This document shows positions 4,967 through 16,913 of a DNA stretch of 64,000 nt, piece by piece. A program made the position numbers and the translations under genes. The notes beneath the pieces are model-generated. The model did not search any database. It was not told where the DNA came from and saw only the letters and a program-made list of their open reading frames with translations. Numbering within the stretch: the stretch's first letter is position 1; each line of letters opens with the position of its first letter. Origin of the DNA: Verrucomicrobia bacterium LW23 (GTDB lineage Bacteria > Verrucomicrobiota > Verrucomicrobiia > Methylacidiphilales > UBA1321); the NCBI GenBank assembly GCA_003054695.1, contig QAZA01000011.1:372001-436000 (forward strand), in the 5' to 3' direction.

Positions 4967-5120
4967 TATCCCCACTTAGACCAATTCGCAAAAGGAGCAA
5001 ATAACTTTGCGAATTGGTCTTAGCGGCTTTGTCCCCCTTCGCGCGAAACATTCCCCCTCCGAATCGGATGGCAGAGGGGAGGTTTCGCACGAAGGGGGAC
5101 GAAGCCCCTAAGTGGGGATA
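4967..5120. repeat. Palindrome (family A) carrying an inserted 39-bp hairpin
   Basis: Outer arms TATCCCCACTTAG (4967-4979) and CTAAGTGGGGATA (5108-5120) are exact inverted repeats, continued inward by GCGGCTTTGTCCCCCTT against AAGGGGGACGAAGCCCC. The left arm is interrupted after CTTAG by a separate perfect hairpin (4978-4992 against 5006-5020, 15 bp stem), after which CTTAG is repeated and the arm resumes. Without the 44 bp the arms pair well. The element lies between convergent genes ending at 4893 and 5233. Relatives are at about 11626-11758 and 13884-14010. Confidence 0.85.
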
Positions 5121-6037: not shown

Positions 6038-6704
6038 GGGGATTGTTAAACCACGAAACACACGAATATTGCAGAGGGGACGAAAGGGGGAATCATACAC
6101 CACGACTGACACGAATCGTTCTGACTAGAGCGGGTTAAGTACAGATGTAAACAGGCTAATCATGGGATCTCTCGGAAGCTGGCAGTTGGATAATGAGCCT
6201 TCCAGGCAAACCTTCCCCCCGTTGCGACCGTTGCGTGAAAATCCCTAACGGACTTCGCCCAGTTTTTGAGTGTAGCGATCCGTGGAGGGGACTTTCACGC
6301 AACGGTCGCAACGGGCAGAGACAGATACGCAACGTACGCAACGGGGGAAGAAGATAGACTCAGGAAGGCTCAATCGCAACTTTCAGACCCCCTTACTGGT
6401 CCTGAATGCTCCGGTACCTAAACCGCTCCAGAGCCTGTCGACATTCGAACTCGAACTGTACGAGAGGATCTCTACTTCCCCTCCGTGCAATCCGTGTTAT
6501 CCGTGGTTAATAACTCCCCATTGAACTGAGTTTTATCCTCGGATTACACGGATTACACGGATTACACGGAGGGGAATCTTCTCCACGATAGTCGAATGTC
6601 GACAGCCTCTGGAGTGCGATATGGTGCTTGTTCACTCTAAGAGTGCCAGAATCCCCTTTCGTCCCCTCTGCAATATTCGTGTGTTTCGTGGTTAAACAAT
6701 CCCC
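6038..6704. repeat. Nested palindromic island with three repeat families
   Basis: Outer arms of about 52 bp (6038-6089 and 6653-6704) are nearly perfect inverted repeats containing CCACGAAACACACGAATATT and GCAGAGGGGACGAAAGGGG. Inside are a family B element (about 6127-6350) and a further inverted repeat whose arms include AGAGCCTGTCGACATTCGA (about 6426-6448) and its partner at 6592-6614, with CCGTGTAATCCGTG units between. The whole occupies the gap between divergent genes starting at 5961 and 6832. No convincing coding sequence is present. Confidence 0.85.
6127..6350. repeat. Family B palindrome copy 1 (cgttgcgtgaaaatc type)
   Basis: CGTTGCGACCGTTGCGTGAAA (6220-6240) pairs with TTTCACGCAACGGTCGCAACG (about 6294-6314). 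The loop contains GGACTT, CCCAG and GTAGCGATCCGTGG, words shared in the same order with the copy at 19819-20036. The left flank also shares GAGCGG.TTAAGT and a C-run before the arm with that copy, so the repeat unit is longer than the stem. Confidence 0.8.
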
Positions 6705-11603: not shown

Positions 11604-11625
11604 AGGCTGTCGACATTTTGCCTCC

Positions 11626-11758
11626 TCCCCCATTATCCCCTGCTTAGAGGCTTGTATCCCCCTTAGAGCGAGACATCTGTGAAGCCGTACTGCAGTTACG
11701 GAGGAGAATGTCTCGCGCTAAGGGGGACGTAAGCCTCCAAGCAGGGGATAAAGGGGGA
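11626..11758. repeat. Family A palindrome copy 2
   Basis: The left arm has TTATCCCCTGCTTAGAGGCTT and CCCCCTTAGAGCGAGACAT; the right arm has ATGTCTCGCGCTAAGGGGG and AAGCCTCCAAGCAGGGGATAA. It resembles the elements at 4967-5120 and 13884-14010 in having CTTAG, GGCTT and CCCCCTTAG in the same order. It lies after paralogue 3 and before paralogue 4. Confidence 0.8.
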
Positions 11759-11791
11759 GCGCAAGGAAGGTTGAACATCGTGGAAGCAGCT

Positions 11792-13724: not shown

Positions 13725-14166
13725 TTAACCACGAATAACACGAATGACACGATTAGTGCAGAGGGGAGAATAGGAGAATAGGGGAAGGGGGATGGGGAGT
13801 TTTTTAAACCACGGAGCACACGAAGCACACGGAATTTACGGAGGGGACGAATGGGGACAGGTATAAAATAAAGCCCATTTTCCATCTGCCCTTAGCGGCT
13901 TTGTCCCCCTTAGCGTGATAAGTCTGCCTCTGTAGAAGCCTCGGCAAGTCGGGTGAATCCAGAAAGCAGATTTTATCACGCTAAGGGGGACAAAGCCGCT
14001 AAGGGCAGATTGCGATCCAAATTAAGGATAAGCTGCTCGCCCGTGTGCTCCAACCTCCCCCCATTCGTCCCCTTCGCAGATTCCGTGTGCTCCGTGGTTA
14101 AAAAAACTCCCCTTCCCCTATTCTCCCCTCTGCACTATTCGTGTCATTCGTGATATTCGTGGTTAA
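13725..14166. repeat. Triple-nested palindrome between convergent genes hisA and lgt
   Basis: Three inverted repeats sit one inside the other. Outer arms (from 13725, to 14166) carry TTAACCACGAAT and GCAGAGGGGAGAATAGG. Middle arms carry GGAGTTTTTTAAACCACGG and GGGGACGAATGGGG with their complements. Inner arms are exact over 38 bp, 13884-13921 against 13973-14010, and contain CTTAGCGGCTTTGTCCCCC. The inner arm is of the same family as 4967-5120 and 11626-11758. It fills the 455 bp between two convergent stop codons, so it may end transcription from both sides. Confidence 0.9.
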
Positions 14167-15788: not shown

Positions 15789-16505
15789 ATGGAGTGGATG
15801 ACCTTTCCGGCCCTGGCGCTGCCGGGGCTGCGGCATGGATTCAGCCTGCGCGCGCCGGGGATCCCGCGCGAAGAACTGGACGCGCACCTGCGCCCCGCGC
15901 TCGCCGCGCAGGGCTACCCCGTCAATACCGTGGTGGAGGCCGAACAGACGCACAGCGCGCTGGTGGCCTTCGTGCGTGAAGTACGCCCCGCCCCACCCGG
16001 CGCACCGCCGTCGGACTCCATCCACGGCGCGCCCGCCCCCACCCTTTTCCTGGCGCGCAGCGAGGCACCCGCGGAGCTTACCCCCGCCGGCCGGGTACCG
16101 GTGGTGGACGCGCTCGTGACCATGCAGCCCGGCGTCCCCCTCATTGTCCGCGTGGCGGACTGCGGGCCGGTGCTGCTGTACGATCCCGTACGCCGTGCCA
16201 TTGCCGTGGCGCACTCGGGCCGCAAGGGCACGGAGGGCCGCATAACGGAGGTCACCATCCGCGCCATGCGGGAGTATTGCGGTACCGATCCGCGCGACCT
16301 GATTGTGCAGCTGGGCCCGTGCATCCGCCCGCCGCACTACGAGGTGGCGTTTGCCGAGGAGATCGGCCGCCAGGCCCGCGCCGCCGGCGTCGTCCACTAC
16401 CACGACTGCGAGCTGTGCACCGGCTGCGATCTCGAGCGCTTCTACTCCTACCGCCTGGAGCTGGGCAAAACCGGCCGCATGTGGGGCGCGCTGATGCTGG
16501 AATGA
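15789..16505 (+). CDS. pgeF: Laccase-domain protein (PgeF/YlmD/YfiH family)
   Basis: 238 residues. Members are zinc/copper-site enzymes with purine nucleoside phosphorylase or peptidoglycan-editing (polyphenol oxidase-like) activity. The three metal ligands are visible: H55 in AEQTHSA, C125 in RVADCGPVLLYDP and H142 in VAHSGRKGT. The usual HAGWRGT motif is changed to HSGRKGT. It ends with a cysteine-containing segment, CELCTGCDLERFYSYR, typical of the family. It is a stand-alone gene with no ftsZ or rluD neighbour. Confidence 0.87.
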   Translation: MEWMTFPALALPGLRHGFSLRAPGIPREELDAHLRPALAAQGYPVNTVVEAEQTHSALVAFVREVRPAPPGAPPSDSIHGAPAPTLFLARSEAPAELTPAGRVPVVDALVTMQPGVPLIVRVADCGPVLLYDPVRRAIAVAHSGRKGTEGRITEVTIRAMREYCGTDPRDLIVQLGPCIRPPHYEVAFAEEIGRQARAAGVVHYHDCELCTGCDLERFYSYRLELGKTGRMWGALMLE

Positions 16506-16507
16506 GA

Positions 16508-16666
16508 CCAGTCCGCGCAGTTATTTGGCCCTTTGGCGGGCCGCTTTTGGGCGCATGCTGCGTTGGTCTTTCGGTCATGTATGTTTCACATGCATCCCCT
16601 CAAGCCCGCCTTGCCTGCATCCCAGACTCGGCTCCACCAAAAGGCCAAGATAACTGTGCGAGCTGG
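16508..16666. repeat. Long hairpin related to the 39-bp inserted hairpin (family F)
   Basis: GACCAGTCCGCGCAGTTATTTGGCC (split as GACCAGTCCGCG and CAGTTATTTGGCC, from 16508) pairs with GGCCAAGATAACTG and TGCGAGCTGGTC (to 16666). The sequence AGACCAnnnCGCnnAGTTATTT also describes the hairpin at 4978-5020. It begins a few bases after the pgeF stop. Confidence 0.7.
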
Positions 16667-16693
16667 TCTGAGTAGTTTCAACGCGAGTATAAG

Positions 16694-16913
16694 CATCTCC
16701 TCTGAAGCGCCACAGGCGCGAAAGCCTACAGCCCAGGGCGTGAGCCCTGGGTGAGAGAGAAAAAAGAATCGCGTCCTGTAGGGACGCAACAGCCCTTGCC
16801 TGGCGACGTTGCGTTCCTGCAGAACGCTGAGGATTTTCGCCCTAACCAGGGCTCTCATCCAGGGCTCACGCCCCGGGCTATAGGCTTTCGCGCCTGTGGC
16901 GCTTCAGAGGATG
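16694..16913. repeat. Family D palindrome copy 2
   Basis: Left-arm words CCTCTGAAGCGCCACAGGCG, GCCTACAGCCCAGGGCG and GCGTCCTGTAGGGACGC are mirrored by GGCTCACGCCCCGGGCTATA and CGCCTGTGGCGCTTCAGAGG. The block order equals that of 2563-2792. It sits between the convergent stops of pgeF (16505) and the HlyD gene (17012). Confidence 0.8.

Follow-up and report, generated by a model that had tools for sequence, protein, structure and literature searches.

Hairpin insert and host palindrome

The window, a stretch of 64,000 nucleotides, contains an intergenic palindromic repeat whose flanking reading frames are apparently convergent (Table 1). We observed that the left arm of this host palindrome is interrupted directly after CTTAG by an insert with the layout AGACCAATTCGCAAA-AGGAGCAAATAAC-TTTGCGAATTGGTCT, behind which TTAG and the rest of the arm follow. 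CTTAG is present twice (4975-4979 and 5019-5023). The outer parts of the insert, AGACCAATTCGCAAA and TTTGCGAATTGGTCT, are perfect hairpin arms of 15 bp, and the element spans 43 bp (AGACCA...TGGTCT), or 41 bp net of the duplication. The original prediction had recognised the perfect hairpin but had set its size at 39 bp. No promoter or terminator was found at the insertion site by consensus.

Removal of 44 bp joined TATCCCCACTTAG to CGGCTTTGTCCCCC, and the rejoined sequence matched the opposite arm (...GGGGGACGAAGCCCCTAAGTGGGGATA), so that excision restores the arm as predicted. The host palindrome belongs to a repeat family of its own (TATCCCCACTTAGCGGCTTTGTCCCCCTTCG...), which occupies 4967-5120, 11625-11759 and 13884-14010 in the window and dozens of places in the genome. 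As a query against its own genome it gave 85 alignments; since a palindromic repeat aligns in both orientations, many places were matched on both strands in this count. CCCCA followed directly by CTTAGCGGC, with minor variants, was unbroken in both arms in ~20 host copies inspected. Since this sequence is continuous in the sister copies, these paralogues display the empty site, and the interruption proposed earlier is borne out.

AGACCA-N(20-50)-TGGTCT occurred once in the window, compared to 0.04 occurrences expected by chance. Both ends of the 43-bp hairpin were identical (0 mismatches) to those of a longer element at 16505-16669, confirming the suspected kinship with a hairpin near 16508-16666. 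The longer element is flanked by a TGA duplication (16503-16505 and 16669-16671).

Table 1. Positions of the insert, its host palindrome and related elements in the window
Feature	Position	Strand	Remarks
Shortened hairpin element	4978-5020	.	43 bp; arms 4978-4992 and 5006-5020; covariance model R1, 28 bits
TTA duplication, left copy	4976-4978	.	Its own A is the first hairpin base as drawn; family rule TNA/TNA
TTA duplication, right copy	5020-5022	.	From flank statistics of the family
Host palindrome (own repeat family)	4967-5120	.	Right arm ends at 5120; left arm split by the 43-bp insert
Related palindrome, empty-site comparison	13884-14010	.	CTTAGCGGCTTTGTCCCCC uninterrupted
Full-length family member, GGCC subfamily	16505-16669	.	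165 bp; model R1, 148 bits

Copies, sizes and distribution of the family

We searched for the end motif AGACCAnnnCGCnnAGTTAT and observed 93 matches at ≤2 mismatches in the 6.6-Mb genome, compared to 10 for a reversed-pattern control. At one mismatch there were 67 matches in the own genome, compared to 0 across 386 further genomes of the phylum. The same motif gave nothing beyond single chance-like matches in 115 relatives, the exact 23-mer of the end sequence had 0 matches in the named genome collection, and the plasmid collection, queried with a full-length copy, had no match. A match to a viral contig (L090) was dismissed as a chance match within a phage reading frame. By its aminotransferase (~80% identity), the host lineage lies in the Verrucomicrobiota near Methylacidiphilales; our search for the homologous locus in relatives returned aminotransferase relatives from named genomes without the neighbouring gene. 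Judged by these sequence searches, the family with AGACCA...TGGTCT ends is lineage-specific.

The genome holds about a hundred complete or shortened copies, a count that rests on one draft assembly. The full-length form measures 164±2 bp and has ~60 copies by a covariance model built from 25 full-length copies; this number is approximate, as palindromes match the model on both strands and its calibration was shortened. Two-ended shortened copies fell into classes of 112, 105, 65, 60, 43, 38, 35, 34, 27 and 26 bp. A large subfamily, D, has other arms (AGACCAATTRTCGGAATAAACCGG...), yet agrees with the rest of the family in length, ends, core and TNA flanks, and its shortened forms are of 105 and 34 bp.

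Two side-by-side pairs of full-length copies have a common TNA (C1:124750-125078 and C12:68386-68714), as would be expected from successive insertions. The paired elements belong to different subfamilies in both cases (L138 and L047, respectively), and a tRNA match (L047:83-165) lies just upstream of the second pair.

Target site duplication

To define the duplication, we compared the flanks of 80 two-ended copies. The N of TNA was equal on both sides in 71/80 (p about 3e-33), T stood at −2 in 72/80 and A at +2 in 76/80, and 61/80 had perfect TNA/TNA flanks. The rule was common to full-length and small classes; in the small class alone, N was equal in 22/26 and TNA/TNA was perfect in 18/26. 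C preceded TNA in 35/80 copies and G followed it in 43/80, and both were present in 16/80, no more than the product predicts. Because of these flank counts, and because C and G did not co-occur above the product, the duplication is 3 bp (here TTA). C and G are merely common neighbours of TNA, and the site is often CTNAG. The 5-bp CTTAG duplication of the original prediction was therefore dismissed: CTTAG consists of TTA with a C and a G added, which are the element's on one side and the target's on the opposite side.

Probable derivation of the 43-bp form

We listed and ranked all deletions of the full-length consensus with a direct repeat of ≥3 bp. For the CAAAG arm variant, deletion across the strongest junction (6 bp, TTTGCG/CGCAAA) leaves 43 bp. 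The 43-bp form corresponds to the 164-bp CAAAG variant minus ~121 bp between TTTGCG...TTTGCG, the longest direct repeats there, and 3/3 of the 43-bp copies were of CAAAG type. Similarly, the top-ranked junction of subfamily B (7 bp) matches the 65-bp copy, and the 34-bp copies of CAAAG type correspond to a 5-bp junction, TTTGC. As the size classes coincide with microhomology junctions, the small forms are best read, from their sequences, as probable deletion products.

Together, these data make it likely that a non-autonomous, MITE-like mobile element of ~164 bp gave rise to the hairpin by shortening. One copy of the family occupies a TTA site within the left arm of the host palindrome, itself a member of a different repeat family. 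A DDE-type transposase with a TNA target (IS5 family, IS1031-like) would have moved the full-length element in trans. Its middle would then have been deleted by slippage or end-joining over the hairpin, more likely in place after insertion of the full-length form than before transposition.

Alternatively, the 43-bp hairpin and the other forms of 27-60 bp may transpose as such, with few deletions whose products then spread; they would be among the smallest DNA transposons. We consider this possible, though somewhat doubtful. The small forms carry the family's TNA duplication, but deletion in place would give identical flanks. The loops of the three 43-bp copies differ (TTTTGCG, TTTATGCG and TTTAAGCG): the apparent source arm of the window copy is TTTTGCG, and another copy has TTTATGCG. 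This suggests separate deletions from different arms, and the 43-bp junction, as the strongest slippage site, is expected to recur. The 27-bp forms, moreover, retain just one near-complete end. On the other side, the five 34-bp copies comprise only two sequence variants. The three identical CACAG copies among them have a junction homology of 3 bp, one of ~50 equal candidates, a hint that favours copying of at least that form. Small forms were also unevenly shared among subfamilies, with a small:full ratio of 24:25 in A-C compared to 2:29 in D (p=6e-5). This skew could reflect a greater age of A, whose copies diverge from their consensus by 3.5% compared to 2.3% for D, or spread of the small forms. 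With respect to the predicted transposition of a tiny palindromic element, the empty paralogous sites and the 80 copies with matching flanks uphold insertion with a target duplication. The hairpin, however, is a deletion derivative of the 164-bp element, and since the full-length form may have inserted first and collapsed later, movement of the 43-bp form in its own right is no more than possible.

The copies form a ladder that leads from a 164-bp transposable hairpin to remnants of 27-43 bp, all along which the target duplication is kept. They illustrate how a small orphan hairpin in a bacterial genome can be what is left of a larger element, and they make it a testable question how small a mobile DNA unit can be.

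Candidate mobilising enzymes

Family elements measure 164 bp or less and have no transposase inside. We assessed the seven PF01609 loci in the genome as a possible source. None had AGACCA ends, and those with readable ends showed a TA duplication, not TNA. Resident PF01609/PF13586 transposases were therefore dismissed, as their ends do not match. No transposase with the family's ends was found in the 95%-complete assembly, and we infer that the mobilising enzyme is either absent from this assembly or diverged. IS1031-group elements of the IS5 family prefer a TNA target and make a 3-bp direct repeat (PMC12016507). Our best guess from the TNA target is that the mobiliser would be an IS5/IS1031-type transposase.

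A candidate autonomous element, an 1818-bp end pair (C23:69410-71227), was dismissed because its two ends are fragments from different subfamilies that enclose an ordinary gene. At this locus (G000:C23:69410-71227; L031:611-2428), a 476-aa gene lies between the left and right fragments, with TTA on both outer sides. Its placement could be due to chance, or the gene could be carried between the two ends.

We also considered whether a Y1 transposase (IS200/IS605-like, RAYT) moves the hairpin as a single strand in the manner of REP/REPIN sequences, with CTTAG as the cleavage motif. The hairpin shape, high copy number and conserved apical core are in keeping with such a mechanism, and Y1 transposase genes are present in the genome (five matches). 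Nevertheless, none of the Y1 genes is flanked by family elements (model R1 best E 0.05), and the palindrome that flanks the one at C25:144746 is not of this family. The N of TNA is duplicated on both sides, which is a staggered-cut duplication; IS200/IS605-type movement is not known to leave one at the insertion site. Mobilisation by Y1 is therefore very unlikely. Formation of the insert by template switching or palindrome extension within the host arm, with no transposition, is extremely improbable: nested palindromes are prone to events of this sort, but copies of the inserted sequence are spread over dozens of unrelated sites, where TNA flanks them and full-length versions also exist.

Hairpin structure and conserved core across the order

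The 25 full-length copies aligned to one hairpin of 55 pairs, 23 of which were changed on both sides, although these covariation counts rest on few independent subfamilies. Paired cells amounted to 95.6%, and the covariation score was 0.237, compared to 0.087 in shuffles (0/500) and ≤0.074 in slid versions. As the DNA is palindromic and its arms could be kept alike by self-templated correction, covariation alone is no proof of RNA function. The elements had no gathering-level match in Rfam, and miRNA-like matches were those of generic hairpins.

The full model matched 7/12 family genomes, own genome counted. The core reads AAGGCG..GAGGGAGTG-stem-loop-CTCGACCGA..CAACGC, and a core model was positive in 16/62 genomes of the order (the own genome and 15 others), with match counts of 71 (own genome), 46 (G006), 33 (G007), 23 (G009) and fewer elsewhere; as part of the sequences behind this model came from those genomes, some matches are expected, but not their copy numbers. 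The core was observed in G002, G004, G005, G006, G007, G009 and others (L219:1234-1367, L294-L301, L302-L312) at ≤46 copies per genome, with no Rfam match.

In other genomes the arms around the core were unrelated to AGACCA and self-complementary, and differed between copies and genera. A family in G006 with the ends GCCGTA(A/T)CTATTCAAAAC gave >90 end matches; many of these lay at the ends of contigs, where recent repeats of near-identical sequence are expected. Among 34 sampled flanks from G006 and its relative G002, the pattern was CTNA before the element and G after it (C in 33, T in 31, A in 33). Two pairs from G006 read TGA/TGA and TTA/TTA. Families that differ in their arms thus have target and core in common.

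MITEs usually have conserved ends and a free middle, whereas these elements combine, in several genera, a conserved core with arms that are exchangeable but remain complementary. The pattern suggests a structure that is under selection or self-templated. It is conceivable, albeit unlikely, that a ~160-bp hairpin spreads in bursts across this order of Verrucomicrobiota, keeping the core and the (C)TNA(G) target as its arms are replaced together. The fold, not the end sequences, would then be recognised by an enzyme or an RNA/DNA structure, and the 27-43 bp products may move.

Comparison with known systems

The best class for the family is MITE-like elements with a conserved core and changeable arms. 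Its copies have terminal inverted repeats, a TNA duplication and no internal transposase, and occur at many unrelated sites with a known empty site. No autonomous parent with the family's ends was seen at the seven PF01609 loci of the 95%-complete assembly. Shrunken mobile elements of a similar kind are already known. The very small mobile repeats of cyanobacteria termed SDR (Elhai et al. 2008) are comparable in size and reportedly measure 21-27 bp and insert into other repeats; unlike these, the tiny AGACCA forms are traceable as deletion products of a 164-bp element. A literature search returned no description of the AGACCA family or its conserved core.

The QMITE1 MITEs of Coxiella burnetii range from 39 to 400 bp, with internally deleted copies down to 39 bp (PMC10969869). 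Like such size-variable MITEs (QMITE1, and Chunjie of Geobacter), the AGACCA elements are short and non-coding, with inverted ends, flanking duplications, many copies and internal deletions (PMC10969869). In contrast to both, the entire AGACCA element forms a single hairpin whose length hardly varies (164±2 bp), with compensatory changes and no parental IS found, and its core is conserved while the arms vary between subfamilies and genera.

The TNA target and 3-bp TNA direct repeat are shared with the IS1031 group of the IS5 family (PMC12016507), but no IS1031-type transposase gene with AGACCA ends was found; likeness of ends was limited to ~GACCAAT within the own genome and was absent in other genera. 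Intergenic hairpins at high copy are also a feature of REP/REPIN sequences with RAYT (PMC3116915). Whereas REPINs have two conserved ends, the AGACCA family keeps the middle and varies the arms. It has no linkage to a Y1 (RAYT) gene and duplicates TNA, and a place in the REP/REPIN class is not supported.

Other repeats in the window

We observed inverted ends GAGCCTGTCGACATTCGA at 6426-6448 and 6592-6614, ~190 bp apart, similar to those that bound an IS5-type element at G000:C10:283611 (L084:1088-1778); this pair is probably another MITE. Inverted repeats of 60 nt with CAGCCCAGGGCGTGAGCCCTGGG lie at 16698-16911, and a very similar palindrome flanks the Y1 (RAYT-like) gene at G000:C25:144746 (L087). 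These repeats thus resemble a REP/BIME family. The repeated hairpin CCCGTTGCGACCGTTGCGTGAAAATC, with arms of 25-56 nt, makes up yet another family of intergenic palindromes and is present at 6218, 8086, 15303 and 19913.
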